Shown here in pieces: positions 3,481 through 53,374 of a stretch of 64,000 bases of DNA (its first letter is position 1; every line of letters begins with the position of its first letter). The DNA lies in assembly GCA_948144175.1 (NCBI GenBank), contig CANXME010000303.1:49244-113243 (forward strand), in the 5' to 3' direction. This stretch comes from Closterium sp. NIES-65 (taxonomy: Eukaryota > Streptophyta > Zygnematophyceae > Desmidiales > Closteriaceae). The notes beneath the pieces are model-generated. The model had not been told where the DNA came from, did not search any database, and was given only the letters and a program-made list of their open reading frames with translations. Made by a program: the position numbers and the translations under genes.

Positions 3481-3576
3481 TCTGCTGACTGCACGACCTG
3501 CCCTGCCTGGTGAGCACTGTCCCACTGACACTGCGAGCTCTTTCCCTACTGCTTGCACTGCGTCACTGTCGTCACC

Positions 3577-11580: not shown

Positions 11581-14500
11581 CTACAACGAGACCAACATCG
11601 CACCACAGATGTTGACAATGTTACCGAAGGATTTATTTGTCACAGGCCAATTAGCAAGGCACTTGCAAACAAATACCGCGATAGTGAAACTGCCCGTTGC
11701 AATACGACATACTGTACGAGGCAAGCCAGAAACTACCTTCACAACACGTAGCATATGAGGCAAGCCAGGCATGACTTTAACAAGATATACCACTGACCTT
11801 AGAGTCTACTTAAATCTCAGCTCATATGAGGCAAGCCAGGAATGACATTCGGGAGATGTAGCACTGACCTTTACAGGGCCCTCACGTGTTTTTTCATCGT
11901 CAGGGTTGCAGGGTATCTTTGAGAATTTCCAACAATGTGACTTTTGAGTCGACTCAAAAGTCACCTCGTTTCATCGTCAGGGTTGCAGGGTATCTTTGAA
12001 ATTTCCCAAAACTGCTCTCATTAGGAAGTGGCACTAACCTTAACCGGATCCTCTAGTGAGTTTTCATCGTCGGGGTTCCCCGAGGGGCTGGAGAGACGAG
12101 TGAGCAGCACTGGGCCTGAGGCTGCTGTGCCCTGCAGGTCTACATGTAGGGTCACTGCGGATGGCTGGAAGTTGCCAGCCTGGGGTGGGTAAATGGGGTT
12201 TAGGGTGCGTTGGATGGGGCATGTGGAGCTGAATTGAAACGAAATGCGTGTTTTGAGAAGCCTGAAAAGTGGAGGCGGCATGGCGGGGACATGTGGAGGG
12301 CTGCAGTGGCGAGTGAGCAGCACTGCGCCCCCAACAGCTGCTCCCTGCAGGCCCACTCAAGAGGGTCAGTGCAGATGGGTGGAAGTTGGCTGCCTGGTGT
12401 GGGTGGTGCACGTGGAGCATGCATCGCGAGGTGTTCAGCTGTTGCCAGCAGCAAGAGAAGCTCTTAGGAAAGAGAGAAAGGGATGGACGGGGAGAGAAAG
12501 GGATGGACGGGGAGAGAAAGGGATGGACGGGGAGAGAAAGGGATGGACGGGGAGAGAAAGGGATGGACGGGGAGAGAAAGGGATGGACGGGGAGAGAAAG
12601 GGATGGACGGGGAGAGAAAGGGATGGACGGGGAGAGAAAGGGATGGACGGGGAGAGAAAGGGATGGACGGGGTGAGAAAGGGATGGACGGGGTGAGAAAG
12701 GGATGGACGGGGAGAGAAAGGGATGGACGGGGAGAGAAAGGGATGGACGGGGAGAGAAAGGGATGGACGGGGAGAGAAAGGGATGGACGGGGAGAGAAAG
12801 GGATGGACGGGGAGAGAAAGGGATGGACGGGGAGAGTCAGACCTTCACGAGAATAGCTGCCGCCGCTGAATTGCCATCTCTTGTGATTCGAACAGCCGAG
12901 GCTTCAAACCGCCTTGCAGCTTGCACATCAGCAGCACCACCCTCAGCACATCGGGGGGTGGAGGTGACATCTGAGGAAGGTGCATCGTGACTGGTAGAGG
13001 TCCGATTCAAGAGAAGGGCATTTGAAACTGGGAAGGAGGCGGAGGAGGAGGGGGAGGGGGAGGAGGAGGAGGAGGAGGAGGAGGAGGAGGAGGAGGAGGA
13101 GGAGGAGGAGGAGGAGGAGGAGGAGGAGGAGGAGGAGGAGGAGGAGGAGGGGGAGGGGGAGCAGTAAGAAGAGGAGGAGAGGGAGAGGCGGGAGGGCAGC
13201 AGCGAGCCTCCTTTGGAGCGTTGGAACATGCGGTGCAGCCAGTAAGTGGGCGTGCCGTAGAGGCGGTGTGAGTCAAAGGCTATGAGGTCAGGCGTCCAGC
13301 TGGGGGAAAACAGGGAAGGGAGAGTTGGGGGGGTTGGGGGCTAATTCGACGCGGGCAACATGCGGTGCAGCCAGTAAGTGGGCGTGCCGTAGAGGCGGTG
13401 TGAGTCAAAGGCTATGAGGTCAGGCGTCCAGCTGGGGAACACGGGGAAGGGAGAGTTGGGGGGGTTGGGGGCTAATTCGACGCGGGCAACATGCGGTGCA
13501 GCCAGTAAGTGGGCGTGCCGTAGAGGCGGTGCGAGTCAAAGGCTATGAGGTCAGGCGTCCAGCTGGGGAACACGGGGAAGGGAGAGTTGGAGGGATTGGG
13601 TAATGATATTCCGATTCTCTCACCTCCTGTCATGCACGTTGACGAGCAAGGGCGCATAGCTGACCATTGCCACCACGTCACTGCAAAAAGGGAGAAGTGG
13701 GGATGAGGGATCGGCCGAATAGGACGTGAGAGGATGTGTGCAGTAGTCAAATCAAGTAAAGTGGAACAAAGTCAAGTCAAGTCAACCCATGCACGTTGAA
13801 ATTACCATCACATCAGCGTAAATGAGGGAGAGTGGGGAGTAGGGAGCAAGCATCACATGAGAGGTAAAGTCACGTCATGCACGTGAGAAAAAAAAAAGAA
13901 GAAAAAAAAAGAGTTTAAGTCAAGACCTGCACGATTGGTGCCCAGCAGGGGGAAACGATTGGAGGAGTCTCGAAGAAAACTTTGATTTCGCCTTTCAAGA
14001 GAAGGCAGCACGAGAGGGCAGCCGGAGGGAGCAGCAAGAGAGGCTCACCTGTTCCTCTCCAGCCCGATGAGAAAGCCTGCTTCTGCCACTGCTGCCCGCA
14101 CATGCCATTTGAATAAGCAGCATTCAAGTGCCATGGCTTCTTGTGAACCACAGGGGACGCTCACCTGTTCCTCTCCAGCCCAATGAGGAACCCCGCTTCT
14201 GCCACTGCTGCCCGCACGTTGCCATCCCCTCCCCCCCCTTGCACTGCGAACTCGCTCAGAAAGGCCTGCTGGACGACGAGGTGAGGTGTGGGAGGGTGAG
14301 AGGTGGGGGGTTGGGGGTGACGGGAGAACTTTTGAGTCGACTCAAAAGTCAATTCAGGTGGGGGGTTGGGGGTGACGGGAGAACTTTTGAGTCGACTCAA
14401 AAGTCAATTCAGGTGGGGGGTTGGGGGTGACGGGAGAAGGGAGAGCGGCGAGGGGTGAGGGGAAAAAGGAGAGGGGCGAGGGGGTGAGGGGAAATGGCAT

Positions 14501-17500
14501 AGGGGGAGAGTGAAGGAATTCGAACCATTCATGGCACAGAATAGCTGAGAAGCGTACCATCCCTGCACGCCACGTCACCTTGGGTCCATCCCTGCTGATG
14601 TCATCAAAGTAATGACCCAAGCTGAAGATCCCCTCTGCTGTACCATAGGACTGCGAGCGGGGCAGACAGTCACATGCACACATGCATGGAAGGGAAGGAC
14701 GTGCGACGAGAGACAATCATCAGGCAGAGGGAATCAAAGTAATGACCCAAGCTGAAGATCCCCTCTGCTGTGCTGTAGGACTGCGAGCGAGAGGTGATCA
14801 TGCAGGGGGGGAAGCAGGCATACAGAGATACGTGTGGGAAGAAATGGGAACGAGAGACAAAGATGCACACAGATGGACATACATGTGTATGAGAAGGATC
14901 ACAAGTAATTGAACTTTATGCATGGCGAGTGCACCAGGCGGGAATGCCTTCGAAACGTCACGTGTTGAGACGTCTAAGAGGTCCAGCACATGCAGCCATG
15001 TGGCAACCACGAGCAGCACTGCATCACACTGCGCTGCATTGCACTGCACCGCACAACACCACACAGAAGAACACAGAAAAGCTCAGCATTGCGCAGCACC
15101 GCACAGAACCGCAGGCTGGAGTGCCATGCCAAGGCAGCCACTCGACGTACGTGGAAATCGTAGAGGTCGGTGGGAGGGTGGTCAAGAGGCCCCTTGCTGA
15201 CGTCACATGTGTACACCACCGCCATGTCGGGATATGCCGCCTTGATTGCCGCCCGGAAACGAAGGAAGTTGCCTGGAAGGTGGCGAGGGCAAGGCGAGCA
15301 GGTGTGGTGGGTGCAGGATGAGAAAGGGCAAGACATACATGCACAGATGAACAGATATATTCTTTCAAACAGCATCGGCTTGCGGCACAGCAACGCTAGG
15401 CCTCCACCACTGCTCTACTTCGGTAGTTGTCCCGGTAGCAATTCTCATTCCCAATGCCCACGCGCCCACATGCCCATTCACTCACATCAAACAACACACT
15501 TGCTTCCCCTCGTAACACACATGCCCTCACCTCGGTAGTTGTCCTGGTAGCAGTTCTCATCCCGATGCTCACATGCCCACATGCCCACATGCCCACATGC
15601 CCACATGCCCACAAGCCCATGTGCCCACAAGCCCATGTGCCCACGTGCCCATTCGCTCACATCAGACAATGCCATGCTTCCCCTAATGATCCACATGCCC
15701 TCACCTCGGTAGTTGTCCTGGTAGCAGTTCTCATTCCCGATGCCCACGTGGCGCAGATCAAACGGTTCAGGATGGCCCATGGCCGCCCTCTCCACTCCCC
15801 ACCGCGAATCCGACGGTCCTCGTGCGAACTCGATTCCGTCAAGAACCTCCTGTGGCGCCACGTGGCAGAGAGGAACACAGAGGATGGGGGTTGAGGAGTG
15901 GGTGAGCACGAAAGAGGGACATAGGCCCCTAGCTTAGGAGTGCATGTGCGCTTAAGATTGATCCAACGTGATTCTCAAAGCAGGAACTACCTCAGAAATT
16001 TCATGGGTTTTGCTCGACCTTCCATGCCCAAGGTGGGAAGAAGAGAGGTGCGAAGGGGGGAGGGCAGCTGACCTGAATGAAAGGAGCGAGGGCGCCTGTG
16101 AACACGCTGTCAGTGTGGCTGTTGCCTGCACGGCAGCGCACGGGTGCATGGGAGTGCATGGAAGAGGGAGAGGTGAGAAGGAGGGAGATGCGAATGGGGT
16201 GACCTGAATGAAGGGAGCGAGGGCACCTGTGAACACGCTGTCAGTGTGGCTGTTGCCTGCATGGCAGCGCATGGGTGCATGGGAGTGCATGGAAGAGGGA
16301 GAGGTGAGAAGGAGGGAGATGCGAATGGGGTGACCTGAATTAAGGGAGCGAGGGCGCCTGTGAACACGCTGCCCGTGTGGCTGTTGCCTGCACGACAAAC
16401 CCAGTGAGAAGAAGGGAAAAAGGATGCATTGAGACAAGGCGCAATCCCTCAGTGCATGGGGGTGTATGGGATGGGAGAGGAAGGGACAAAATGGCAGGGC
16501 ACGTGGGAAAGCACTGATGTATGCTGTTGCATCAAGCAGTGGAGAGAAATTTCTCATAAAGTGGTGTTACATCTGCCCACAACACTGGGCAGGTAGGCCG
16601 TCTCTCTGCTCGTGCCCGACATGTGTCAGCTCACTAATATAACATTGACCACACGACACATATGGGCGATGCAACAAGGTCCTCAACACTTTGATCCGAA
16701 TCTGCTTCAGCTTACCACTGTTGAACACCCAGTCTTACCGCTATTGAACACCCACCCACCCAGGCTCGCCGCTCTAAAACACCCACCCACCCAGGCTCAC
16801 CGCTGTTGAACACCCAGATGGGAGTGGCGCCAAGGTCTTCTGCAAACTGTAGATACTCAAAGAACCCCAACCCGTCGTCCGACCAATACCCCCACCTGGT
16901 AGGTGCGCATGAGTTGGGGAGGAATGAGGGGTGCGCATGGGGCGAAGAGTGGCTGGCATGTGTTGGAACTTGGAAATTAGGCACCTAGCTGATGCTTTGT
17001 GAACTGCAAATAATCAAAGAACCCCAACCTGTCGTCCGACCAATACCCCAACCTGGTAAGTGTGCGGTGCACTTGGGGGTAAGTGTGTTGATTGACGGGT
17101 GGCGGGATGGGGATCAAGGGCAGACCGGAAGGGCGAGAACAGGAGATGGGCATAACCCTTCTGAGCGGCCAGAGGTGGGTGAGCAGCCAGTGACTAGAAA
17201 TGAGACCCACCGGTCGTTGAAGTGGCCCGGGCGGAGTTCCCAAGGGCCGATGGTGGAGCGCCACCGGAAGGCATTGGCCAGCCGCACGCCCTCCACGTAG
17301 CAGCCCCCAGGGAAGCGCATGAATCCGGGGGAGAGGCCCTGGAGCATGGTGGCTATATCCATGCGCATGCCGTGAGACTGGATGGGTGGAACATGGTTGT
17401 ATGGGAGTGGGGGTGCAGGGCATTGGGTACTCCCATACACCCATGTAGCAGCTTTCAAAGCAGCCGCACTCCCTCCACGTAGCAGCCCCCTGGGAAGCGC

Positions 17501-20500
17501 ATGAGGCCGGGGCAGAGAGCCTCTAGCATGCCTGCTACGTCCCCTTGCATGCTGTGAGCCTGTGGGTGGAACACGGGTGTATGGGTGTCTGGATGTATGG
17601 TTGTATGAGTGCATGGGTGTATGGGTGCATGGGTGTATGGGTGCATGGGTGTATGGGTGCATGGGTGTATGGGTGCATGCGTGCATGGGTGCGTGGGTGT
17701 ATGGGTGTATGGGTGTACGGGTGGTGTATGGTTGTATGAGTGCAAGGGTGCATGGGTGTATGGGTGCATGGGTGTATGGGTGCATGGGTGTATAGGTGCA
17801 TGCGTGCATGGGTGCGTGGGTGTATGAGTGTATGGATGTACGGGTGGTGTATGGTCGTATGAGTGCATGGGTGCATGGGTGTATGGGTGCATGAGTGCAT
17901 GGGTGTATGAGTGTATGGGTGTACGGGTGGTGTATGGTCGTATGAGTGCATGGGTGCATGGGTGTATGGGTGCATGGGTGTATGGGTGTATGGGTGTATG
18001 GGTGTACGGGTGGTGTGTGGTTGTATGAGTGCATGGGTGCATGGGTGTATGGGTGTATGGGTGTATGGGTGTATGGGAGGTGTATGGTTGTATGAGTGCA
18101 TGGGTGCATGGGTGTATGGGTGTATGGGTGGTGTATGGTTGTATGAGTGCATGGGTGCATGGGTGTATGGGTGTATGGGTGTATGGGTGGTGTATGGTTG
18201 TATGAGTGCATGGGTGCATGGGTGTATATGGGCCACCCCATGCCCCATGCCCCATGCGACGTCAACCTTCTAGAAGCATCCGACTCACCTTGAATGTCTC
18301 AGCAGGCATGGCTGAGATCTGGTCCAACCACAGAGTGCCACGTGTCATGCTGCCAGTGGTGATAGCCAGCGAGGCGTTGTGGCATGTGCCAGTCGCAGCA
18401 ACAGTGGCCTCATAGCGGTGCCACGTGGCAGCCATGGATTGGTTGAGGCTGGCAGCATCAGAGAAGGAGGGGATTAATAACGGGCAGTTGTGTATCACCA
18501 GACAAGAGTATTGGGCACGCATGGGGAAGGAAGGAATGTGGGGTAGTGAAAAGAAGGGGGTTTCAATGTGGTAAGGTGAGGGCATGGTGTGGCATGGCGT
18601 GGGGTTGCTTGCATTGGTGTGAATGCACCATTCCATTCCATGGTGTGTGCATGCAAGGGCGTGCTCACAGCATTATGCATTGTGGCGAGCATGAGGACTC
18701 ATGGGGACGGGACCAGATAACAGCTCACCTGATATGAGCTGAGCCGACAGAGGGGACCGAAGAGAGGCGGCGAGAGGGAGGGAGAGCGGGCGAGCAGAGG
18801 AAGGAGAGGCGGAGGGAGAGCGGGGCCGTGGCACGTGCGTGTAGGATGATGTTGTATGTATGGCTTTGCTCTATGCTCTGATGGGGGGGTGGAATGATGG
18901 GATGGGAATGGGGCCAAGCGGGGTGAAGGTATGGGAGAAGTGAGCGTGCAGGATGATGTTGCATGCATCGCCTTGCACTATGCTCTGATGGGGGGGTGGG
19001 ATGGTGGGATGATGGGGCATGGGATGGTGGGGCATGGGATGATGGGGCATGGGATAGAAACGGGACATGGGATAGGGGTGGGTAGAGTAGTAGAAGGGTG
19101 TCGTATTAAAACCTATGCGAAGTGATCAGAGTGATAGGGCTGCGTCGAATAGTGCTGTAAGCACGGCCTTGCATGTGGAAGAGCATTCTGATTGGTCCAT
19201 TGCATGTGGAAGAGCATTCTGATTGGTACATTGCATGTGGAATGGTCAGATGCTGGGAGGATGGGGCATGATGGCATGGTGGGGCATGATGGGAGGATGG
19301 GACATGATGAGCCCTCACCATGCCCCAGTAGCCGGGATTGAGCACCCCCACACCATCCTCACACACCCGCCCCTCCTCTCCCTTGCCTGCATCCTCTCCC
19401 ACCCCTCCCTCCTTGCCTTCCTTCCGCTCCTCTCCGTGTCCCTCCCTCCCGTTGCCACCACCACCAACGCCACGCCCTGTCGGTTCTCCCAGCGAATCTG
19501 CGTCTCCCAGGCTCAGCCCCAGCAACCCGCCAAGCCACTGCCTCACAGCCGCCCACGCGCCCACCCCAGTGGCATCCCCAGGAAAATGAGGGGATTCCAC
19601 CACACGCCTGTGCAATCCCTCCCCTCGGGCAGAGAGCCGGCGGACAGCCTGCTCATGCCACCTCTTCTCTCGTTGCGAGGGTAGCCTCAAGTGCTGATCG
19701 CCCACTCTCTGCTCGCTTTCTTGCTGCGGTGGCACATCAGAGCAGTGGATGTCGATGCGCAGGGCGATGGGGTTGCGGGGAAAGGGCGAACTTCGTTCCG
19801 TGCGCAGCAGCACATGGGGCTCGGACCCAATAGGCAGCCATGGTTGCAGTGTGGAGGGGGTTTCCTGCCCGCCTGCTTCGAACCCTGCAGTGAGTCATGA
19901 GCGACGGGAAGGTATGATATCTGTGAGGGGAAGGGCGAGCAGCGCTCCGTGCCCAGCAGCACGAGGGGCTTGGACCCGATGGGCAGCCATGGTTGCACCG
20001 TGGAGGGCGTCTCCTGCCCGCCTGCTTCGAACCCTGCAGTGATTTGGGAGTAAAGGGAAGGGGTTTGTGGCGGGCGGGCATGGTAAAGGGAAGGGAGCTG
20101 TGCGGGGGAAGGGCGAGCATCGCTCTGTGCCGAGCAGCAGGTGGTGTTCGGACCCAATAGGCAGCCATGGGTGGATCGCGGAGGGGGTTTCCTGGCCGCC
20201 CGCCTCGAATCCTGTGGTGAGCGCGAGAACGAGAGAGCAGCGCTGAGCGCAACGCACAGCAGCACGTGGGGCTCTAGGTATGCATGGGTGCAGCAAGGAG
20301 GGTGGGCGGCATGGGTGCAGCAAGGAGGGCGGGCGGCATGGGTGCAGCAAGGAGGGTGGGCGGCATGGGTGCAGCAAGGAGGGCGGGCGGCATGGGTGCA
20401 GCAAGGAGGGTGGGCGGCATGGGTGCAGCAAGGAGGGTGGGCGGCATGGGTGCAGCAAGGAGGGCGGGCGGCATGGGTGCAGCAAGGAGGGCGGGCGGCA

Positions 20501-22478
20501 TGGGTGCAGCAAGGAGGGCGGGCGGCATGGGTGCAGCAAGGAGGGCGGGCGGCATGGGTGCAGCGAGGAGGGCGGGCGGCATGGGTGCAGCGAGGAGGGC
20601 GGGCGGCATGGGTGCAGCAAGGAGGGCGGGCGGCATGGGTGCAGCAAGGAGGGCGGGCGGCATGGGTGCAGCAAGGAGGGCGGGCGGCATGGGTGCAGCA
20701 AGGAGGGCGGGCGGCATGGGTGCAGCAAGGAGGGCGGGCGGCATGGGTGCAGCAAGGAGGGCGGGCGGCATGGGTGCAGCGAGGAGGGCGGGCGGCATGG
20801 GTGCTGCAAGGAGGGTAGGCGGCATGGGTGCAGCAAGGAGGTGGGGCGGCATGGGTGCAGCAAGGAGGGTGGGCGGCATGGGTGCAGCAAGGAGGGCGGG
20901 CGGCATGGGTGCAGCAAGGAGGGTGGGCGGCATGGGTGCAGCAAGGAGGGTGGGCGGCATGGGTGCAGCAAGGAGGGCGGGCGGCATGGGTGCAGCAAGG
21001 AGGGCGGGCGGCATGGGTGCAGCAAGGAGGGCGGGCGGCATGGGTGCAGCAAGGAGGGCGGGCGGCATGGGTGCAGCAAGGAGGGCGGGCGGCATGGGTG
21101 CAGCAAGGAGGGCGGGCGGCATGGGTGCAGCGAGGAGGGCGGGCGGCATGGGTGCTGCAAGGAGGGTAGGCGGCATGGGTGCAGCAAGGAAGGGGTTTCC
21201 TGGCCCCTCGCCTCGAATCCTGCAGTGGAGAAAGGGCACGTCACAGGCGTGGGGGGTGACACTCAGCGCTCCATGCAGCACAGCAGCTCGTGGGGCTGTC
21301 AGCGGATGGGGCATGCCATGGGTGCACCGTGGAGGGAATGGTTAGACATTCCAGCGAGCAGCAGTTGAAGGGAGAATGTTTAGCAAATGAGAAAACAGAT
21401 GTAGAAAGAAAGCATAGCTGATTCACGTAGGATGCCATGGGTGATTCACGTAGGGGGATGCCATGGGTGCACCGTGGAGGGGCATGCCATGGGTGCACCG
21501 TGGAGAGGGGTTCTTGTCGCTGCAGTCAGAGGGACGGGCGTGCGGGGGGGGAATGGGAGGAGGTAGGTGTGGGAGTGGCTGTGGGGAATAGACAAGGGGG
21601 TATGCATGTATGGGTGCGTATAAGAGAGAAAACGACCTCCTTGCATCCATTCTCCTCCCCCTACCCTTCTTCGCAACTGACCTCCTTCCCATTTCCCTTC
21701 CCCCCCTGCTCCCCCCCCCCTTTTCCGCTTCTCCCCCCGCCTCCCGTTCTCCCCCCCCCTCCAACTTGCCTCGGTTCTGCACCAGCTCCGCGTACAGCCC
21801 TCCCGCGCCCCCGTGGTTGATCTCCTGCGCACAAACACACACACGCATGCGCCACACACACATGCGTGCGCCACACACACGCGCGCGTGCGCCACACATA
21901 TGCGTGCGACACACACATGCGTGCGACACACAGCATATGCACGCTCACATGCACACACAAATGCACACGCCCAGGACTGACATTGGAAGTCCTCTCGAAT
22001 CTCGGCAGAACGCAGAGAGATAGAGAAGCAACCCCATTCATGATCCGAGACGTCTCAGAATATGGTACTAGAAAAGGCATTCCGGGGAATATGCGGGAAA
22101 ATGGACACGCAATCCCCACGAAGCAACTACCTCGAGAAATATGCCGTAAAAGGAAGGCGATATCGGACGGCCTTGCGCAACCCCATCGACGGTCAGTATC
22201 GCATGATCAACCCAACGCTCCGCATGCGCCGTGGCTGAATCCTTTTCCGGGGTTGCTGGCAATACGACTGCCTCAGCAGACGAGTCAGCGAGCCTGAACG
22301 ATTCGTTCAAAGGCGAATGAACGTTGCTCGTGGATGAAAGCTTTGGGAAGTTGAAGCTAGAACGGCAGAGAGCGACGAGAGTGACAAGAAGAGCGACAAG
22401 AATGAGAAGCGCGAAACGCCGTGGGAGAGAAACATAATTTCTAGCGTGAACTCGCGAGAGGAGAACGGGAGGTGCCAT
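11581..22478 (-). CDS. Plant-type alpha-L-arabinofuranosidase (GH51), 16-exon model
   Basis: Exons (minus strand): 22478-22131, 21824-21770, 19884-19319, 18877-18729, 18448-18289, 17377-17211, 16895-16801, one of 16387-16335/16256-16204/16125-16073, 15849-15705, 15272-15151, 14650-14579, 14268-14165, 13680-13624, 13299-12843, 12179-12039, and a last exon not resolved (stop perhaps 11581). Phases agree at every junction to exon 15, giving about 897 residues before the last exon. Landmarks are a membrane anchor at 22-38, then EINHGGAGGLYAELV, RFPGGCYVEG, the acid/base Glu in GIGNENC (about 571), the nucleophile Glu in LSEFAV (about 650) and SYAPLLVN. The family releases arabinose from wall arabinans and arabinoxylans. 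Oddities are the anchor, a roughly 127-residue insertion in exon 3, a poly-Ser tract in exon 14, and echoes around most exons. Exon 2 uses a GC donor. Confidence 0.88.
11870..12085 (-). repeat. Echoes of the exon 15 end (GH51 gene)
   Basis: The 3' end of exon 15 (NPDDEN...VK before GTTAGT) recurs downstream in the intron as CCTGCAACCCTGACGATGAA near 11975, broken by a palindrome, and again near 11915 with a donor-like AAGGTCAGT at about 11870. A further motif, CTGGCTTGCCTC, is present three times between 11720 and 11845. Confidence 0.7.
11937..11964. repeat. Perfect 28-bp palindrome
   Basis: GTGACTTTTGAGTC followed directly by its exact reverse complement. The central 22 bp recur at 14328-14349 and 14383-14404, and the central 14 bp in the array at 47596-48830. 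Confidence 0.95.
12476..12836. repeat. 20-bp minisatellite in GH51 intron 14
   Basis: About 18 near-identical copies of GGATGGACGGGGAGAGAAAG; two copies carry GGTGAG in place of GGAGAG. The array stops seven bases short of the exon 14 donor at 12843/12842. Frames through it are repeat artefacts. Confidence 0.95.
13042..13160. repeat. GGA trinucleotide run inside a coding exon
   Basis: An almost pure GGA/GGG run lies within GH51 exon 14. On the coding strand it reads TCC codons, giving a poly-Ser stretch of roughly 35-40 residues between the catalytic domain end (YWLHRMFQRS) and the C-terminal beta-domain. The reading frame stays open through it. Confidence 0.85.
13226..13562 (-). repeat. Three tandem copies of the exon 14 start
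   Basis: Acceptor plus the first coding part of exon 14 (SWTPDLIAFDSHRLYGTPTY) occurs at 13562, 13431 and 13299, spaced 131 and 132 bp. Each copy carries its own CAG acceptor. Only the copy at 13299 runs into the rest of the exon; the other two hit stops in the intervening intron sequence. Confidence 0.93.
14049..14268 (-). repeat. Exon 12 and an echo of its 3' end
   Basis: AAVAEAGFLIGLERN followed by an AAC-AG/GTGAGC donor ends at 14165 in the exon and again at 14049, an offset of 116 bp. The echo lacks the part carrying the nucleophile Glu. Confidence 0.9.
14328..14404. repeat. Two copies of the 22-bp palindrome in direct repeat
   Basis: ACTTTTGAGTC plus its reverse complement at 14328-14349 and 14383-14404. 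Both sit in a 55-bp direct repeat with the same G-rich flank (GGTGGGGGGTTGGGGGTGAC), between exons 11 and 12. Confidence 0.95.
14579..14780 (-). repeat. Exon 11 and an upstream echo of its start
   Basis: A CGCAG acceptor followed by SYxTAEGIFSLGHYFD begins at 14780 and at 14650, 130 bp apart. Only the second continues to DISRDGPK and a GTGACG donor. Confidence 0.9.
15419..15740 (-). repeat. Exon 9 end with two downstream echoes
   Basis: The acid/base region NENCY[QR]DNYR ends at 15705 in the exon. It recurs ending at 15531 (offset 174 bp, donor GGTGAGG kept) and at about 15419 (offset 112 bp, donor lost). Confidence 0.9.
16073..16387 (-). repeat. Three complete copies of 53-nt exon 8
   Basis: Exon copies at 16387-16335, 16256-16204 and 16125-16073 lie exactly 131 bp apart. 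Each has a TGCAG acceptor and a CAG/GTCACC or CAG/GTCAGC donor. Each encodes GNSHT[GD]SVFTGALAP[LF]IQ with entry phase 1 and exit phase 0. Any one keeps the frame of exons 7 and 9; using two would shift it. Confidence 0.93.
16711..16815 (-). repeat. Four-fold repeated splice donor of exon 7
   Basis: GTTCAACAGCGGTGAGC (exon 7 end plus donor) is followed in the intron by three diverged copies. Two of these keep a usable GGTAAG donor and one has GGCGAG. Units are about 23-31 bp. Confidence 0.88.
16985..17062 (-). repeat. Upstream echo of exon 7 start
   Basis: Starting at 17052, an acceptor CCAG and LGYWSDDRLGFFDYLQFTK repeat the beginning of exon 7 (start 16895) at an offset of 157 bp. The copy loses similarity after KHQLGA. 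Confidence 0.88.
17459..17565 (-). repeat. Upstream echo of exon 6 start
   Basis: Starting at 17559, an acceptor and MRFPGGCYVEGVRL repeat the substrate-site part of exon 6 (start 17377), offset 182 bp. A stop follows GVRLL. Confidence 0.88.
17576..18232. repeat. 8-bp based minisatellite in GH51 intron 5
   Basis: About 650 bp of ATGGGTGT and ATGGGTGC units with a higher-order pattern: a spacer TGGTGTATGGTTGTATGAG recurs every 60-110 bp. Open frames on both strands are artefacts of the repeat. Confidence 0.93.
18877..18990 (-). repeat. Upstream echo of exon 4 start
   Basis: CCCATCAG acceptor plus SIVQGDACNIILHA begins at 18984. The used copy, SIEQSHTYNIILHARA, begins at 18877, an offset of 107 bp. 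Confidence 0.85.
19884..21224 (-). repeat. Four copies of the exon 3 start, one expanded
   Basis: An acceptor followed by GFEA[GR]GQETPS begins at 21219, 20211, 20033 and 19884. The last offsets are 178 and 149 bp. Copies at 20211, 20033 and 19884 read on as HPWLPIGS or QPWLPIGS to TER[CS]S. Only the one at 19884 continues to the rest of the exon. The copy at 21219 contains the 27-bp array between its two ends. Confidence 0.92.
20278..21190. repeat. 27-bp minisatellite grown from exon 3
   Basis: Roughly 33 copies of a 27-bp unit (GCATGGGTGCAGCAAGGAGG plus GCGGGCG). On the coding strand it reads LLHPCRPPS, related to the exon 3 sequence around HPWLPIG. The unit length is a multiple of three and has no stop in several frames, so frames over 1 kb are open on both strands. 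Confidence 0.95.
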
Positions 22479-22784
22479 GGCTCCAAACCAGAATCAATCC
22501 GGAATTCTGAGGGTGAGGAAATTGATCGAGTGAAGGAATTTTTACATTATATGCAACATTGAGTGGTCCGGTAATACATCCGAAACAAAGACGCACCATG
22601 TTGCTATACGTATATATTTCGTTCACTACGGAGTCCTTCGATAAAACACATACCATAAATGCTCCATAAGCCATCAAACAGCTACTAACATACCAATAGC
22701 AGCTACCAATACATCGCAAAAGGGATTCTCTACTTAATACATACCGTAACGTATGCGCACTGTGCGTGGACTGTGCACTATAAC
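22479..22784 (-). promoter_or_regulatory. Short spacer holding the GH51 promoter
   Basis: Only 306 bp separate the stop of the CH-LysM gene from the ATG of the GH51 gene on the same strand. A TATATAT run at 22611-22617 lies about 135 bp upstream of the GH51 ATG and could be a TATA element. Nothing else is recognised. Confidence 0.35.
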
Positions 22785-25771
22785 CTAGTCTACAACCACA
22801 TATTCGTTGGGAAAGATTAGGTCAGGGTTGTAAATGTCCGGGTTGAGTTCTGCAATCTCCTTCCAGTTGCGCTTCCCGACCTGCTTTGAAATGTTTATGA
22901 GAGTGTCTCCTTTCCTTATTTGGTATTTCTTCCTGCGACAGCACAAAAGAAAACAGATGGAGCAAGCTTAGTACGACATGATAACATGATGCACAAACCG
23001 CAAAAGAAACGGTGCAGCATCAAATAAGAAGCAAAACCGGAGGCACAGAAACTCTCACCTGGATGGTCGGAACAGCAGCATCACAGCCACAAAAGCGATT
23101 GCCCCTCCAACAATAGCTCTCCACGGGGCATGTGATGCTGCCCGGGGCGAAGACGGGCAGGATGAATAATCAGATTCCAAATCCTCCTCCCCTTCCGTAT
23201 GGCAAACAGTTGTGACACCTGCCGAAACGTCCGTGAGAGAGGAGGTTGTTCCAGCCGACGTGGTAACCGCATCCGAAGACGGATCACGAGAAGCATCCAG
23301 GCTGGCATAGAAGCTGCCTGCTGCTTCCACTGAGACTGCCAGGCGGTTGGAGGGGGGAGGCCAGACCATGTGAGGGTCCAGTCTTGAGACGGGAGGAACA
23401 TCTGACACACCGCTCTTTGGTTTTGGTTCCGCTTCGTTAGAGGTGGAGCTGAAGCCTTTGCTGACAAAGCCTGACACTTTCCCCTTGCCCTTCCCATTCT
23501 CCATCTGCTTCGCTTCTTGGCCCCCTGCCTTGCTACCAGCAGCAGCACCACCACCATCGCCATCACCACCACCGACACTACTGCCACCATTAACACCACC
23601 AGTGCCACCATCACTAGCAGCACCAGCTGCAGCGCTGCCCCAGCCATTTATATCAAAGCTGTTTTCTGAGCCTGATTGGCTGGCAGGCACGTCCTCCCTA
23701 CCCCACCCGCGCCTGTAGTTGGGCCCCATGAACTCCCTGACAGCCCTGTCCACCACGCCCCCCTCTGCTGGCATGCGCTTCGCCACACTAACTGCTGCCG
23801 CTGCAGACGCTGGCTCAAAGTCTATCGCCTGGATTGGTGAGGGGTGGCGGGGGGGGGGGAAGTTTGAGGTTAAAGGTTGGGTCGCCTCAGATGCCAGCTC
23901 ATAAGTCCATGGCCTGGTGGAGGGTAGTGGTACGAAGGTTCATATTCGACTTGAATGCCGGCTCAAAGCCTGTGGGCTGACGAAGGGTGGGGGTAGGGGA
24001 GTGAACAATTCAAATTAGGGTTTGGGTCCACTCAGATGCTGGCTCAAAGTCTACAATGGGTATACAAGAAGAGCTCACCTGTATGCCTGCTGCTCTGAGC
24101 TTGAGTGCGAGGGTGCGGATGCAGAGGCAGATGCGTTGAGAATTGGGAGGAACGAAAGAGGAAAAGAATAAAGAAAGAGAAAAACTAGATGGATTATACA
24201 ACATGAAGCTCTCACCACTATGCTGCTCTCACCACTATGCTGCTCTCACCAATATGCCGCTCTCACCAGTATGCCGCTCTCACCAGTATGCCAGCTGCTC
24301 TGAGCTTGAGTGCTAGGGCGCGGATGCAGACACAGACGCGTTTGGTGCCCTTCTTCTCCACCACGTCTGTGGATGTGAACAGGTCGATGGCACTCAGCCC
24401 AAACGCCTTGCACATCTGCCGTGGCAGGGGAGGTGATAGTGGGGGTTGAGATGCTGTTGGGCACTTGAATTGACTGAGGCCATGTGGACAGGAGGAGGGA
24501 ACGCAGCCCATACTCCTCATGCATATGGCGTGACATAGAGGGCGGGGATAAGGGGCTCGTGGCAGGAGGGTGAAGTGAGTCAAGTGAGTAGTGCAGCGTA
24601 ATGAGATGGAGTGGTGAGATTGAACGGTGGAGAAATCGACATGGTCAGGTGTAACTTCTTGAGAAACAATGGGAACAATCTGGTAAGCTGAAGTGGGTTT
24701 CTGTGAGAAGAAACGAAAGCCCGAAAGGCGACAGGTGGGGAGGTACCGTGAGGAAGTTATCAGTGAGGATCATGGCATCCCACTTGATCTTTGTGCCCCA
24801 TCCCTGCTGCTGTTGCTGCTGCTGCTGTCGTAGATTGATCCCGGCACTCTTTGGTGCAAACGGCGAGAGGATGTCAGTCAGGCGTGACCTGATGATGCAG
24901 AGCAGAGAGGAGACCAAGCGAAGGGCACAGCGGAGGCCCAAGGGGAGGGGAGAGTGACTTGATAAGAAAAAAAAAACCCACAAAAAAAAAATGATCAGTA
25001 GAAATATACTTAACTGGAAATAACGGGAAATTGTGAATAGATTACTTGATCAGGAGGGCAAACGTAGAGCAATGGGAAGGCACTCACAGGATCATGCCGT
25101 CTGCAAGGGTATCTGCCAGGGCGGCATCTGGCGGTAGCTTCTCTTTCAACACTGCCTCCAGCCAGTTCCGGACCCGTGTCTGCACGGGTGATGATGGCGC
25201 CGAGAATGTGACACACACACGTGCACACATGCACACATTTACACACGCACGCACGTACGCACACACGCACACGAACTGGATCACAGGTTGGCGACTTTGT
25301 TCGTAGAGCTTTTTTCTCTTTTTTATTCTCGAAAGCCATATCACTGCTCGCACGCACGCGTTGCAAGGCACCTCAAGCCATCATATGTTGGATGCACGAT
25401 TAAGGGCGTGGTAGGAGTCACATGCTACGTTACCTCCTGACGCTTCGCAATACGAGATAAGCCAATCCACCGATCGCACGCACGCGTCGCAAAGGCACCT
25501 TGAGATCATTTGAGTGACGTTGAATACACATTAAGGGCGTCGTACGAGTGACATACAACATAAGCTCCAGACACGTCGTTCAGCGCTGCAGCCCGGTGCT
25601 GGCGCTCTCACACCGTTACAGCGCGGTACGCTTCGGTTCCTTGACGTCTCACGCGGATGTTCGGGTCTCTCATTCCTCTTCTACCACACCGTAACGAGCT
25701 TCAGTGCTCAAACCTAATCGTACCTCGAGAATGCCGTCAACGAAAGGATCCCATTTGGTCCGGGAGCCCAT
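22785..25771 (-). CDS. CH domain - transmembrane - LysM protein, 443 residues
   Basis: Exons (minus strand): 25771-25724, 25179-25088, 24888-24747, 24415-24284, 23828-23059, 22932-22785, total 1332 nt with all phases matching from ATG (ACCATGG context) to TAG. Residues about 10-140 read as a calponin-homology domain: TRVRNWLEAVLKEKLP, LADGMIL, then CKAFGLSAIDLFTSTDVVEK and RALALKLRAAGI. It holds an eight-Gln insert near 68-75. Residues 140-375 are low-complexity (Gly/Ser/Ala-rich). Residues 376-391 (AIVGGAIAFVAVMLLF) form a membrane segment followed by basic residues. Residues 398-442 are a LysM: YQIRKGDTLINISKQ to NPDLIFPNEYVVV. CH domains bind actin or signalling partners; LysM binds GlcNAc-type glycans or acts in intracellular proteins. 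Topology is unsettled, because the basic patch after the segment argues for LysM on the cytosolic side. Confidence 0.82.
23828..24062 (-). repeat. Echoes of the exon 5 start (CH-LysM gene)
   Basis: The start of exon 5 (AIDFEPAS after CCAG at 23828) recurs upstream near 23913 (AMDL then stop), 23970 (GFEPAF) and 24055 (VDFEPAS). Only the copy at 23828 continues to the rest of the protein and has the right phase. Confidence 0.82.
24078..24300 (-). repeat. Splice-donor repeat and echo of exon 4 end
   Basis: Exon 4 ends GGCATACTG/GTGAG at 24284. Directly downstream a roughly 17-bp unit, AGCGGCATACTGGTGAG, is repeated about five times with small changes to 24195. A longer echo of the exon end (CIRTLALKLRAAGIQ with donor CAG/GTGAGC) lies at about 24140-24080. 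Confidence 0.85.
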
Positions 25772-27290: not shown

Positions 27291-27409
27291 TGATGCGTCA
27301 CCCACTACTACCAGCACTCAAGGCTATCGCAACATGTGGCTTCTCATGCGCGCAGTAGTAGCAACACTGATCACGTTATTCATATTCCCCGTCCTCCCTC
27401 CCTTTTCAG

Positions 27410-34832
<7,423 letters not shown>

Positions 34833-41964: not shown

Positions 41965-42645
41965 CGTAATGTGCAAAACATGTATGTGCACATTAGTAAC
42001 TCTGTAAGGTTGAATGTAATAATGTTATCATGAACTCTGTAACAGCAGGTGAAAAGGCAGGTCTCTAATCCAGTTTGCTTGTTGGCAGTTCGTTCCGTCA
42101 ACACCTTGACGGTCGTCGCTGCGCGCCACACATGTCCTCTGGCGAGGCGACGCATCTGTTCCACCTTTCACGACAGGCGTGAAACTGGAACTGTGGGCTG
42201 TCTGTCAGGGTTTGTCCTTGTAAAAGCAATGTGCTTCTTCTGCTAATATCGAATATATTCTACGTTGATTACAGTGGTACGTGTGGGTGGGAGTGAATTG
42301 CCTATGGCTGTCATAAATTCACCATCAAGTTTCCAAAACAGCAAGACAGCCGTTCCTTGTTGTCGCCTAAGCCTGCTAGTCCTAAGGCCCAGACATATCA
42401 GTGCACGGTTCGTTTGACGCGGTTTATTACGGTCACACCACGTTTGAGAGCGGTTTTCAAATTCCACCGCTTTAGACCATTGCGCACCAAAAATGAACCA
42501 CGAACGGATATGACTCGACCTAAACAGCAGCATAGCCCGGCCAGAGCAGGGTAGAATTCGCGTTTTCTGTGCTGTCAAGCCAACTGCCAGGCATCGCGCT
42601 TCAGTTTTCGAAGACCTGCTGTCACGCAACGAATGGCCGACCTGG
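41965..42645. other. Intergenic spacer
   Basis: 3' flank of the PAS gene and upstream region of the PSI-like gene. No gene, transposon end or tandem array is seen. Confidence 0.5.
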
Positions 42646-42652
42646 TATAAAA
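42646..42652 (+). promoter_or_regulatory. Possible TATA box of the PSI-like gene
   Basis: TATAAAA, 294 bp upstream of the ATG at 42946. The position would leave a 5' UTR of roughly 260 bases. This rests on sequence alone. Confidence 0.35.
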
Positions 42653-42945
42653 CCTACTGAGAGACTGTCTCATCTCCTCGGTTTCGTTTTTCAATGCAGT
42701 TCTGTTTCAGTCCGTTTTGTTGAACTCGTCAGATAGGCTCGACGACGCGCCAGCGAGTCCGCATTTCACGTATCGTTACTCTCGTTTGAAGTTTGCGAGT
42801 CAGATAGTCTGCGTTCTTCGACGGCTGCACTCAACCGATTCAAACCATTATGACGTATAAAGCGACCCAACATACTTAGGTTAGAAAATGATAGTCTCCG
42901 TATTCTCATTACCACGCACTAGAATGCCTCAATAGCTTGTGTTAC

Positions 42946-45900
42946 ATGGGTAACCAGGTCAGTGTGATCGACACGTTAGTAAACGCGGAGTTTCCACCAA
43001 TCAACGATACTGGTTCTAATAGCCTAGTAAGGAAACCAGCAGTATCGGGGATTACCAACTCCAAAAGCAGCAGCAGCGTCAGCACCCTATCCGCTACCAG
43101 CACTAGCAGCAGCAGCAATGGCGGTGGTAGCAGCAACGCTACGAGCAGCAGCACGGGCACCAGCAATGGCGGTGACATTGGTGGCGTATGCAGCTGCAGC
43201 GTTACCAGCACCGCCGAAAGCGGCGGCGGTAGTGGTGGCACTGGCGGAGGCGGAGTGAGGAGCATCGCGTGCAGCGATCTCAGCCGTCCGATGGGCATCT
43301 TGGCGTTCGAGGTGGCGGGGCTGATGCACCGGGTCCTGGATCTCTGGAGCCAATTGGAGCCCGGACACGTGGCAGAGCTGAGGCAGCAGCTTCAGGTGCG
43401 CAGTGGCGGATGAAGCTCGAGGCTGCTTTTCACAACACATGGAAAGCCACGGACAATTTCTGTTACTGAGGAGCGTTCAAACAGGACAACAAGCTGAAAC
43501 TGAGAGGAATGCTTTTCAACAACAAGCTACTTTTGCGGAACCGGTTACATCTAAGTAAACTTATCCGTGCGTGTGTGTGCGCGTGTGCTGTGTCCACCTG
43601 TGCGCGTGTGCTGTGTCCCGTGTTGTGCATGCATGGTGGGGGCAGAGTGAGAACCTGGAGAGACTGGGAGTGGGTGACTTCACCTTCCGGTGGCGCATGG
43701 CAGGTGAGACAAGTCAAGAAGGGGTTGGGAGCTTTGCTTATGGTTAAGTAGGGGTTTGGTCAGCAGCCAAAACGGGGTGGCATTTTTCTAGCAGTCAGAA
43801 ATGGGTTGGGATTGCCAAACGGTTTTGTTGGGTTAGAAGCTGACCTGCAACTTTTAAGAGCCATTCGAAGTAACTAACTCCTTCCTCTCTACGATTCTCC
43901 CCACTCTCGTTCGAGCCATCCCCACCCACCCCACCCATTTCCACCGATTTCCACCTCCCAGGCCTAGAGTATTCCAACGAGCTGCTACTGCTGACAGCTG
44001 GGGTGGCGGCATTGGCTCGGCAAAGTGGGGGGGCGGTGGGGGGGCAGGTGCAGCAGGTGCTGAGAGCGCATGCGAGGAGGAAGGAGAAGAGGGAGAAGGC
44101 CGTGGGGAAGGCAGAGGCGGATGAAGTTATGAGGTGAGGAGGGGGGAGAAGGAGGGGGAGGGGAGGAAAGGGGAGCAGGGGGGTGTAAAATGGCAGAAGG
44201 CGGGGTAAAGGAGAAAGTGAGTGTTGGGGGGGAGAGTAAGTCTGATGGGGGGCCCAGGCAGCAGCTGCAGCACGTGCTGAGGGCACATGCAAGGAGGAGG
44301 GAGGAGATAGAGAAGGCCGTGGGGAAGGCAGAGGGGATGTAGTGATGAGGCGATGGCGAAAGGGTGGGGAGGAGTGGGGGGTTGCAGAGGGAAGCTTAAA
44401 GGCAGAACCACAGGGTACAAGGGCGAACTTGTTAACTTGCATTTGTATGCGTGCATGTGTGTGTAGGCATTTGTGTGTGTGCACTTGTGTGTGTGCATGT
44501 GTGTGTGTACATGCATGTTTGTGTGTGCATCTGTACCCGATACTGTACATGTGCATGTGCATGTGAATGTGCATATTCAGGTTCCTGCGAGACCATCTGG
44601 GGCCAACGGGCATTCTGAAGCGCGAGATGGAGGCACTGGATGAAGCCATTGCCAGGTGAGTTTGAAGGTATGGCAAGGTGAGGTGAAGGGATTGAGAGGG
44701 GTTATGGAAGGTCGAGTCCTCTCAGAGGGCCCACATGCATACTGAAGCGAGAATGGAAGCTCTGGATGAGGCCATTGCCAGGTGGGTGGGGATCGGCATA
44801 GCGAGTAAGGGTGCCTTTCTTTTTGTGGGTCCAGCTGCTTGCTTGCTTGCTTGCCTGCTTGCTTGCACATGTGAGTTACCCTGCGACTGGTAACCAAAAC
44901 TACAGTGGTCTTCCTTCCTCCTTCCATCACCCGCTACCTGCCCTTCGTTCGCGCCATCATGCTGCACCACTCCACACCCCCTGAAACCCCTTTTTTTCCT
45001 CGTGCTAACCTGCCAAAAGCTCCCTTATCAACAAACCCCTCGCTCCCCACTCACCCCCTCACACCTCTGCACACCCCCCCCACTGAGCTCATCCGCTGCT
45101 TACCCCTTCGTGCCCTAACTTCCTCCCCACCCCCCCACTTCCCCCTTTCCCCCCCCTTTCCCTCACCTTTCCCCTCTTTCCCCACTTTCCCCCTACCCTT
45201 TTTTCCCCCCTTTTCCCCCCTCTCCCATCAGCACGTCATCTTACAGCGATGCATACTCGTTTGAGGACAATCAACCCACACATACTTATTCTGATGACTG
45301 CTGTCCTTGTCTTGTCTTGTCCCCCTCAACCCCCTCTCCGTTTCCTTGCCTCCCCATCAGCACGTCATCTGAGGGCGATGCATACTCGTTTGAGGATACG
45401 CGGCCCACACAGTCGTACCCCGAGGAATACTTCGTCACCCAGGCAAGATTGGGTGGCATTGAATGGCATTGAATGGCACTGGTGGCATTGGATGGCATCG
45501 GATGGCATTGAATGTCATTGAATGGCACTGGATGGCATCGGATGGCATTGAATGTCATTGAATGGCACTGGATGGCATCGGATGGCATTGAATGTCATTG
45601 AATGGCACTGGATGGCATCGGATGGCATTGAATGTCATTGAATGGCACTGGATGGCATCGGATGGCCTTGAATGTCATTGAATGGCACTGGATGGCATTG
45701 GGCGGTGGATGGCATTGGGTGCATTAGATTAGATGGCCTTGCGTGGCGTTGGGTGGCATTGGATGGCATTGATTGGCATTGATTGGTGCACAACAGCACA
45801 CATCATGCTATGCATCCAATATTGCCGCCCACCCACCCATGCGCAACCATGCCCACCCATGTCCACGCATGCGCAATCATGTGCACCCATGCGCAATCAT

Positions 45901-48900
45901 GTGCACCCATGCGCAATCATGTGCACCCATGCGCACTCATGTGCACCCATGCGCAATCATGTGCACCCATGCGCACTCATGTGCACCCATGCGCACTCAT
46001 GTGCACCCATGCGCAATCATGTGCACCCATGCGCAATCATGTGCACCCATGCGCACTCATGTGCACCCATGCGCACTCATGTGCACCCATGCGCAATCAT
46101 GTGCACCCATGCGCAATCATGTGCACCCATGCGCAATCATGTGCACCCATGCGCAATCATGTGCACCCATGCGCAATCATGCGCACCCATGCGCAATCAT
46201 GCGCACCCATTCGCACCCATGTGCAACCATGCAGGGGCAGAAGGTGCAGCAGCTGCAGAGGAGCTCCCTATGGTCGCACAGCCTTGAGAGAATGGCCAAG
46301 GTGGGTTCTTCGGCTCCTTCTGCTTCTTCTCTTCTGCTCCCTCCCTCTTTTTCCTCTGCTTCCTCTGCTTCTGCTGCTCCCGCTGCTCCCTCCCACTGCT
46401 CTCTCTGTCTGGGATGTTCCTAATCCATCCCTTCCTGGGTGCTTCTTCAGCTGCCGCTTCATTTTGGATTGGAATGCTTGCTTGAAAACACCGAAATCTC
46501 CTTTTGAAGTAACAATGATCTCGTGACCGCTTCATTGTATTACGCTTGCTTAGTTGCTTGTATGTACATAGTTGCTTGCTTCACCGCTTTGTTGGAATGT
46601 CTTCTATTTTCATCACTTCATCCAACCTTCTTCCCTGTCTGACCCGATTCCGCTCGTCTTTCAACTATCAACAGACCCTGGCGGTGGCGGTCGGCATTCT
46701 TTGGCAGCATCTGAGGGAGGTGTATGGGTGGCCGGACCCCATAGGGCCAGACGACCTGGAGGGCACAGTGGGGCAGGCGGGGCTGCCCATGCTGTACGCG
46801 CGTGTGCTAGCTGCTGTCAGTCAGTTGGCTGTTACCATGCCTGGGACCCCTGCTTTCACAGACAAGAGGTGAGCGGGTAGCATGGGTTTTCGGCTCTCCC
46901 CTACTATCCCCTCCGGCGGTGACCTGGTGGGCGCAATGGGGCAGGCAGGGCTGCCCATGCTGTACGCGCGCGCATGTGCTGAGCCAAAGCAAACGAGCAT
47001 CTCACCCTTCTGCCCTCCCCCGTTTCCTTTCCCCCCCACAGGAAAGAACTCTACGCCATGCTCCCCACGTTCATTCGCCACCAACTGCACTCAATCGCCT
47101 TCGCGTCTGCCTGCCATCCCTCCCAACTGCCCGAAACCCCCTGCTCTCCCCACCTTACCCCCCGAAACCCCCTGCTCTCCCCACCTTACCCCCCGAAACC
47201 CCCTGCTCTCCCCACCCTATCCCTCCCAGGAAGGACCTCTATCTCATGCTCCCCACATTCATTCGCCACCAGCTGCACTCCCGCCTGCGTGTGTCCCGGC
47301 GGCGCCCCCTGGACGAGGTGCTGCTGGGGGAGCTGCGCCAGCTGGCAGCGCAGATGTTCTGCTGGCTCATGCCCTTCAGCCAGGCCACGCTGCAGTGGGT
47401 CAATGACCGTTCCCACAGTGCAAGAGTGGCGGGGCGGCAGAGAGTGCTTCTGGTGCAGGTGGGTGTCAGGGTGGGGGGAAGTGGGGGGGGATGGGAGCGC
47501 ACAGTAGGGCAGCTGGCAGCGCAGATAGTCTGCTGGCTCATGCGCATCTCCTAGGCCACCCTGCAGTGGGTCAACGATCGCTCTCACAGCGACTATTGAG
47601 TCGACTCAAAAGTGGGTCAATGATCGCTCGCACAGCGACTATTGAGTCGACTCAAAAGTGGGTCAATGATCGCTCGCACAGCGACTATTGAGTCGACTCA
47701 AAAGTGGGTCAATGATCGCTCTCACAGCGACTATTGAGTCGACTCAAAAGTGGGTCAATGATCGCTCGCACAGCGACTATTGAGTCGACTCAAAAGTGGG
47801 TCAATGATCGCTCGCACAGCGACTATTGAGTCGACTCAAAAGTGGGTCAATGATCGCTCGCACAGCGACTATTGAGTCGACTCAAAAGTGGGTCAATGAT
47901 CGCTCGCACAGCGACTATTGAGTCGACTCAAAAGTGGGTCAATGATCGCTCGCACAGCGACTATTGAGTCGACTCAAAAGTGGGTCAATGATCGCTCGCA
48001 CAGCGACTATTGAGTCGACTCAAAAGTGGGTCAATGATCGTTCGCACAGCGACTATTGAGTCGACTCAAAAGTGGGTCAATGATCGCTCGCACAGCGACT
48101 ATTGAGTCGACTCAAAAGTGGGTCAATGATCGCTCGCACAGCGACTATTGAGTCGACTCAAAAGTGGGTCAATGATCGCTCGCACAGCGACTATTGAGTC
48201 GACTCAAAAGTGGGTCAATGATCGCTCGCACAGCGACTATTGAGTCGACTCAAAAGTGGGTCAATGATCGCTCGCACAATGACTATTGAGTCGACTCAAA
48301 AGTGGGTCAATGATCGCTCGCACAGCGACTATTGAGTCGACTCAAAAGTGGGTCAATGATCGCTCGCACAGCGACTATTGAGTCGATTCAAAAGTGGGTC
48401 AATGATCGCTCGCACAGCGACTATTGAGTCGACTCAAAAGTGGGTCAATGATCGCTCGCACAGCGACTATTGAGTCGACTCAAAAGTGGGTCAATGATCG
48501 CTCGCACAGCGACTATTGAGTCGACTCAAAAGTGGGTCAATGATCGCTCGCACAGCGACTATTGAGTCGACTCAAAAGTGGGTCAATGATCGCTCGCACA
48601 GCGACTATTGAGTCGACTCAAAAGTGGGTCAATGATCGCTCGCACAGCGACTATTGAGTCGACTCAAAAGTGGGTCAATGATCGCTCTCACAGCGACTAT
48701 TGAGTCGACTCAAAAGTGGGTCAATGATCGCTCTCACAGCGACTATTGAGTCGACTCAAAAGTGGGTCAACGATCGCTCTCACGGCGACTATTGAGTCGA
48801 CTCAAAAGTGGGTCAATGATCGCTCTCACAGCGCCAGGGTGGCGGGGCAACAGCGCGGGCTGCTCGTGCAGGTGGGTGTGGGTGTGGGCGTGGGAGGGGC

Positions 48901-53274: not shown

Positions 53275-53374
53275 GGCGTAGATATTTTGAATTAGTCAAA
53301 TGTCATTCTCAGTACAATAATTGGGCTGTGCGGTAGTCCCATGTCTGAAGAAGCATTGGAATGGGACCCTGCGT

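Follow-up and report, generated by a model that had tools for sequence, protein, structure and literature searches.

Tandem copies of exon edges inside introns of Closterium sp. NIES-65: duplications across exon-intron borders with coding-like divergence

The window analysed here, a 64 kb stretch of DNA on contig C303 of an assembly of 874,075,685 bases in 2400 contigs, raises the question of how partial copies of exons come to lie in the introns beside the exons they resemble, and why they have diverged from these much as coding sequence does. The preliminary description of this DNA had proposed that in five genes most introns carry such copies (referred to as echoes below), often with the splice site kept and at offsets within a narrow band, and that a single repeated event type acts at the borders, enlarging introns and multiplying splice sites.

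A total of 59 exons, namely 11 of GH51, 37 of kinesins, 3 of a WD40 gene, 5 of an O-fucosyltransferase (O-FucT), 2 of GH18 and 1 of a chaperonin (CCT), were each aligned to their own flanks, up to 600 bp per side. The kinesin exons are the sole blind choice in this set, those of GH51, O-FucT, WD40, GH18 and CCT having been picked after echoes were seen there, and exon ends were placed by profile or tblastn matches and reading by eye, without RNA. One kinesin match (L048:1181-1279) was removed from the exon set, being itself an echo, and one L040 exon was trimmed to its first part. Matches below 10 codons or of low complexity were left out of the final set of 40 echoes, which replaced an earlier test with 27. 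At least one echo was found beside 26 of the 59 exons (GH51 8, kinesin 8, WD40 2, O-FucT 5, GH18 2 and chaperonin 1), with the acceptor and donor sides equally represented (20 echoes each).

The facing exon edge is included in 37 of the 40 echoes, and AG or GT, as read by eye, is kept at 32 of these 37 edge junctions, lost at 2 and unjudgeable at 3. Forward matches occur at 29 of 118 exon sides and inverted ones at none of the 118, while exons compared to the flanks of other genes matched in 1 of 590 controls over five rounds (0 in a single earlier round). The intron halves of the units are alike (z>=3) in 12 of 19 pairs. Forward-only matches and alike intron halves correspond to the anatomy of a tandem duplication of the border, and not to that of an insertion. 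Echoes are hence forward-only tandem duplications across the exon-intron border, comprising an exon part, the splice site and usually the adjoining intron. At the junction of one copy in the WD40 locus L030, exon and intron have GCTGCTGTGG in common, which may be read as microhomology.

The tandem copies proposed for the introns of the window are thus confirmed, including the frequent retention of the splice site, and kinesin, WD40, GH18 and chaperonin genes beyond the window have them as well. A single repeated event type at borders, which enlarges introns and multiplies splice sites, is supported, and unrelated genes elsewhere share the pattern. As for the presence of echoes in most introns, this holds for GH51 and O-FucT, where 20 echoes adjoin 13 of the 16 tested exons, but not genome-wide, since in kinesins, delimited by profile coordinates, echoes are present in 5 of 12 segments and beside 8 of 37 exons.

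In the window, 20 echoes were placed, and twelve of them belong to the GH51 alpha-L-arabinofuranosidase gene on the minus strand (11850-22478, the lower end being approximate), which was delimited through tblastn with a plant GH51 query, a Pfam ASD1_dom match on one exon, and reading. Its exon FEAGGQETPS... (19742-19882) has acceptor-side echoes at 19927-20031 and 20101-20209, as well as a fourth partial copy at 21167-21222, which the unit of a 27-bp minisatellite (33.7 copies, 20282-21190) resembles when read by eye. Acceptor-side echoes also accompany the exons at 17207-17380 (echo 17461-17562, offset 182), 16799-16894 (17002-17049, offset 157) and 14579-14659 (14733-14789, offset 130), and the exon start at 13227-13298, whose two echoes (13359-13430 and 13490-13561) follow a period of 131. 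On the donor side, echoes were placed for the exons at 15703-15852 (15529-15575 and 15417-15462) and 14167-14268 (14051-14108, offset 116/117). A 53-nt exon is present in three copies with a period of 131 (16073-16126, 16204-16257 and 16335-16388), that is, with two echoes that are complete and keep both splice sites; most other echoes are partial. All 28 GH51 matches are confined to C303 and C144 and show the same exon spacing, and a donor paralogue of GH51 still residing in the genome was rejected, with matches nowhere beyond these two contigs. The second GH51 copy, on C144, has equal exon spacing over ~7 kb, which implies that the window region was recently duplicated. An earlier DNA search with GH51, in which 38 of 1083 candidates were scored, was dominated by minisatellite matches.

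The O-FucT gene lies on the plus strand. Its exon at 30836-30973 is followed by donor-side echoes at 31041-31137 and 31188-31255, with a palindrome at ~31170 between both, and that at 31684-31815 has upstream copies at offsets 109 and 230 and a donor-side echo at 31838-31893, the whole spanning 31422-31893. The exon at 32081-32218 shows two donor-side echoes with a period of 134 (32267-32348 and 32401-32486), which differ from each other by 7 silent and 0 amino-acid changes over 26 codons. Acceptor-side echoes are found for the exons at 32858-33055 (32750-32801) and 33621-33881 (33468-33562 and 33297-33399). For the remaining three of the five genes the evidence is at the DNA level: local direct repeats occur in the CH-LysM region (24074-25578, offsets 205 and 126) and in the region of the PSI-like and hydrolase genes (44600-47589, offsets 127, 130, 168, 190 and 171). 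The claim of echoes in five genes therefore stands at exon level for GH51 and O-FucT, and as repeats in DNA only for the other three. The PSI-like gene has a DUF3475 match at 42937-43410, slightly under the Pfam cut-off. Elsewhere in the window, open frames at 3553-9411, 52333-54879 and 57319-59201 resemble, by eye, a Copia-type polyprotein, a tyrosine-recombinase/reverse-transcriptase element and a LINE-like reverse transcriptase, respectively.

Comparison of the window to itself, with short-period arrays masked, yields 34 local direct repeats, 21 of which have offsets of 105-190 bp. Offsets between successive copies fall in this same range in 34 of 40 cases (median 139, range 78-330). Many of the values listed in the preliminary description were recovered (112, 116, 126, 130, 131, 132, 134, 144, 149, 153, 157, 170, 173, 178 and 182), and the peak it described is real: copies were sought to 600 bp in the exon search and to 1500 bp in the self-comparison, so that the upper offset limit is a property of the copies themselves. 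At the lower end, detection sets part of the limit, with short exon pieces scoring too low in the exon search; we estimate, by rough correction and not by computation, that a deficit at 60-100 bp persists. The closeness of this band to nucleosome or Okazaki-fragment size, noted in the preliminary description, is at most suggestive of a ruler of that kind, given this weak detection of short units and the abundance of shorter tandem units (20-93 bp) in the same introns. Regarding the preference for borders, at least 25 bp of exon are included in 12 of the 14 repeat pairs detected in GH51, as compared to a mean of 6.8 for random placement (P 0.0044), with exons placed by hand and some of the 14 pairs being different offsets of one array and hence not independent. 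This ~1.8-fold preference is moderate because units of ~130 bp in such an exon-dense gene often cross a border anyway, and part of it may arise from exon copies staying recognisable longer.

A sample of 20 stretches of 10 kb, taken at spaced and not random positions on five large contigs, contains 18 local repeats, of which one is a 181-bp satellite, 10 lie in L030 and 7 are others, the latter with offsets of 208, 235, 362, 383, 615, 1006 and 1402, all of them above the 100-200 band. Sampled repeats in the size band of echoes are solely those of the satellite stretch L026 and of L030. The L030 stretch (C1770, ~5.506 Mb) is the WD40 locus, where 8 of the 10 repeats touch exon edges by reading and 2 (offsets 82 and 93) are intronic; the contrast it offers is that of one recognised gene with the mostly unannotated DNA of the other 18 loci. 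The satellite stretch (C1770:500001-510000) consists of 10 kb of the 181-bp unit at 42% GC, and is possibly centromeric.

Among gene families, the GH18 loci L003 and L007 have echoes, and both paralogues share one at the same acceptor; the intron tails within L007 are alike, and offsets of 208 and 111/112 recur across L003-L006. A GH18 repeat at L001/L002 (offset 127) has no open coding frame and was excluded from the echo count. For the chaperonin, with 87 of 166 candidates scored, at least three double profile matches are echo-like by coordinates (C1626, C43 and C1052, the last of which was also read), and an offset of 222 is found in both C1052 and C1420. The aldehyde dehydrogenase family was set aside as uninformative about prevalence, with 12 of 89 candidates scored. 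One of its members, at C1051:4192871-4194283, has a 712-aa frame without any interruption in a genome otherwise rich in introns; it may have arisen as a retrocopy or by recent transfer, or be a contaminant.

The divergence of the echoes bears on what happened to them after duplication. Over the 40-echo set, exon and echo differ chiefly at third codon positions, a pattern absent from the preliminary description: differences at codon positions 1, 2 and 3 amount to 71, 57 and 198, dN/dS is 0.198, and there are no stops in 965 codons. In 300 simulations where the exon alone was constrained and the echo evolved neutrally, the minimum dN/dS was 0.316 (median 0.444) and 2-17 stops appeared; these simulations use the CpG-rich mutation spectrum of this genome, derived from 37 substitutions, some common to overlapping pairs. 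Between pairs of echoes dN/dS is 0.140 (10 pairs), against a minimum of 0.436 when both are simulated as neutral, and if the two echoes were duplicated from the exon at unequal dates, the value to be expected would lie between the two simulated cases. Both observed values are thus below all simulations, and pure neutral decay is rejected. Taking one nearest echo per exon and omitting the CCT pair, which was found by protein profile, dN/dS is 0.241 over 25 pairs (simulated minimum 0.306), whereas kinesins alone give a weaker signal (0.271, with 2% of simulations as low). In these reduced sets zero stops are inside the simulated range. Leaving out one gene set at a time changes dN/dS to 0.185-0.217 and no single set is responsible. 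The exception is GH18, whose 2 echoes look neutral (dN/dS 0.55, with 0.5 silent against 7.5 amino-acid changes at L007).

Taken alone, the anatomy could be read as that of plain neutral tandem duplications seen through ascertainment: they would arise anywhere in genes, those at borders would be tolerated, exon copies would be recognisable longer, and the echoes would simply decay. Several data agree with this. Random placement already puts the above 6.8 of 14 GH51 pairs on exons, tandem units confined to introns occur as well, and 10 of the 40 echoes have indels that are not a multiple of three, 7 of them with a net frame change, besides the neutral-looking GH18 echoes. The reading is nonetheless improbable, given that the CpG-rich neutral simulations never come down to the exon-echo or the echo-echo value.

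The opposite reading, in which echoes are functional, i.e. alternative exons or exon edges under present selection, takes the excess of silent differences and the lack of stops at face value, and is also favoured by the splice dinucleotides that most edge junctions keep and by the three complete copies of the 53-nt GH51 exon. Against it, the units are mostly partial exons, and the few broken ends that were read have no matching in-frame partner splice site. The offsets are evenly distributed modulo 3 (14/13/13), and the echo at 17461 in GH51 meets a stop a few bases beyond its copied part. Frame-breaking indels in a quarter of the echoes and offsets that ignore the reading frame indicate that most echoes are probably not used exons, and we regard present function as doubtful. 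Equally doubtful is the suggestion of reserve exon-edge copies held in introns under present coding selection, which would either be spliced as interchangeable edges or belong to arrays recombined into functional position in a cassette-like manner.

The account that we prefer, and to which we give about an even chance, combines recurrent border-spanning duplications with the exchange of units between diverged functional gene copies. Its duplication part is well supported, and its exchange part is the best of several that can be inferred. The tandem duplications, mostly of ~100-190 bp, span an exon-intron border, and the echo would be tolerated since a normal mRNA still results when splicing uses the site attached to the remainder of the exon, the extra unit becoming intron. 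Judging by how they differ at silent sites, an exon and its typical echo, like one echo and another, appear to have diverged largely while both were protein-coding. When neither of two lineages ceases to be coding, either both are in use or they have been housed in different functional gene copies, and, as most units are partial exons, exchange with such copies is the simplest option. The partners in this exchange would be alleles, hybrid homeologues or duplicates, and it would proceed inside the small array by unequal recombination or conversion; echoes would then be retired functional edges, which subsequently decay by frameshift and can seed minisatellites, while introns grow. A related Closterium strain, NIES-4550, has been reported to be of hybrid origin and to show recombination between genes that differ in origin (PMC10407611).

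Some results weigh against this account, among them the neutral-looking GH18 echoes, the weaker signal of kinesins alone and the zero stops expected by chance in the reduced sets. Clear similarity between intron halves is also missing in 7 of the 19 pairs. As to exchange, silent differences per silent site vary among pairs from 0 to ~0.5, and do not correspond to one homeologue distance. Patchiness as left by gene conversion was looked for and gave no overall signal (combined P 0.61 over 24 pairs), the CCT pair alone being patchy (P 0.006); nor is a donor copy seen for GH51, whose matches lie on C303 and the equally spaced C144 copy alone.

It should be noted that an assembly artefact, in which the assembler concatenated divergent haplotypes or paralogues, would also account for coding-like divergence, and that many near-duplicate contigs are present in this genome. 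Such an origin is very unlikely, since GH51 lacks a divergent copy that could have been mixed in, separate family loci show the same or nearly the same echo spacing (GH18 L003-L006 and CCT C1052/C1420), diverged paralogues have an echo at the same acceptor, and one exon edge may be found in up to four copies. Least credible of all are introner-type mobile introns, or a mobile element with exon pieces, for although introners have a size range similar to that of the echo units, every echo was found as a match to the edge of the neighbouring exon, and matches to other genes' flanks and inverted matches are all but lacking in the controls given above. A bias of introners to nucleosome linkers, also on the side of that reading, has been described (PMC9860276).

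Returning to duplication across borders, its closest known likeness is a potato gene in which one duplication across an intron-exon boundary produced a new spliced intron, as shown by RNA-seq (PMC4974935). The duplicate there takes in the last part of an intron together with the beginning of the exon that follows, splice signals included, much as echoes combine exon and intron sequence, and the gene has a second duplication, of 83 bp, within an intron. In contrast to that single event, the present ones, known from DNA alone, affect several unrelated genes and donor and acceptor sides equally, reach up to four copies and show coding-like divergence. Tandem duplication is more generally an established mode of intron gain (PMC3443670). 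In the Rogers/Hellsten AGGT model, as outlined in PMC3443670 and PMC4974935, a genic tandem duplication likewise supplies the splice sites, but it starts from an exonic AGGT, whereas echoes copy a border that is already there and lengthen its intron. Tandem exon duplication and mutually exclusive exons (PMC9013439, PMC6071210) keep coding sequence and splice sites as the 53-nt GH51 triplet does, unlike the bulk of the units described here, which are partial and ignore the frame. Introners (PMC9860276) resemble echoes in affecting introns of many genes in one genome, but echoes are local and forward only, and no shared element family was seen among their exon-derived units.

Among the papers listed by the literature searches, none describes duplications of this kind in large number within a single genome, or in Closterium, which is weak evidence of absence as subscription journals were largely outside their scope. 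The process appears common enough in a single genome for statistics, so that the growth of introns, the multiplication of splice sites and the birth of minisatellites can be measured directly, and the coding-like divergence between intron-resident copies is unexpected. Exon ends in this lineage would evolve as tandem arrays should echoes be recycled functional edges; echoes in actual use would amount to alternative splicing of a kind that involves partial exons.

Concerning the age of the echoes, their spacing, in profile coordinates, is identical between close gene copies in three chaperonin pairs and one kinesin pair, which implies that those echoes predate the recent duplications. Minisatellites turn over fast by comparison: between close chaperonin copies a 34-bp array has 13.2 versus 5.5 copies, and between close copies of a kinesin intron a 21-bp array has 4.7 versus 21.7, with 16 differences in the 1110 aligned bases of the remainder. 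One of two close chaperonin gene copies also carries a 24-bp unit, repeated ~3.4 times, that by reading is made of echo sequence. A newly gained echo, present in only one member of a close pair of gene copies, was looked for in two introns and rejected, as these differ by minisatellites and a remodelled echo end.

The palindrome mentioned for O-FucT, similar to TGACTTTTGAGTCGACTCAAAAGTCA, recurs much more often than by chance: its 14-base core is matched 41 times with no more than 1 mismatch over 363,665 bases, where 0.04 matches are expected. A single 46-bp array in the window accounts for most of these matches, and some of the others are in loci that overlap. The sites are 11944, 14332, 14387, 31170 and 47596-48833 in the window, and L018:442, L030:7547, 8665 and 8750, L045:1705 and L051:306 elsewhere. 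With the 46-bp array excluded, 6 of 11 arm pairs are in or near local duplications, which cover 9% of the bases, and several lie between both copies; the L045 and L051 pairs are in copies of one gene. Hairpins as general inducers of duplication were rejected, since a single spacer out of 40 has a stem of 8 or more. Finally, kinesin motor fragments were observed, by coordinates only, as inverted pairs ~400 bp across at C511:712945-713361 and C1052:556971-557362, and in this they differ from the forward-only echoes.
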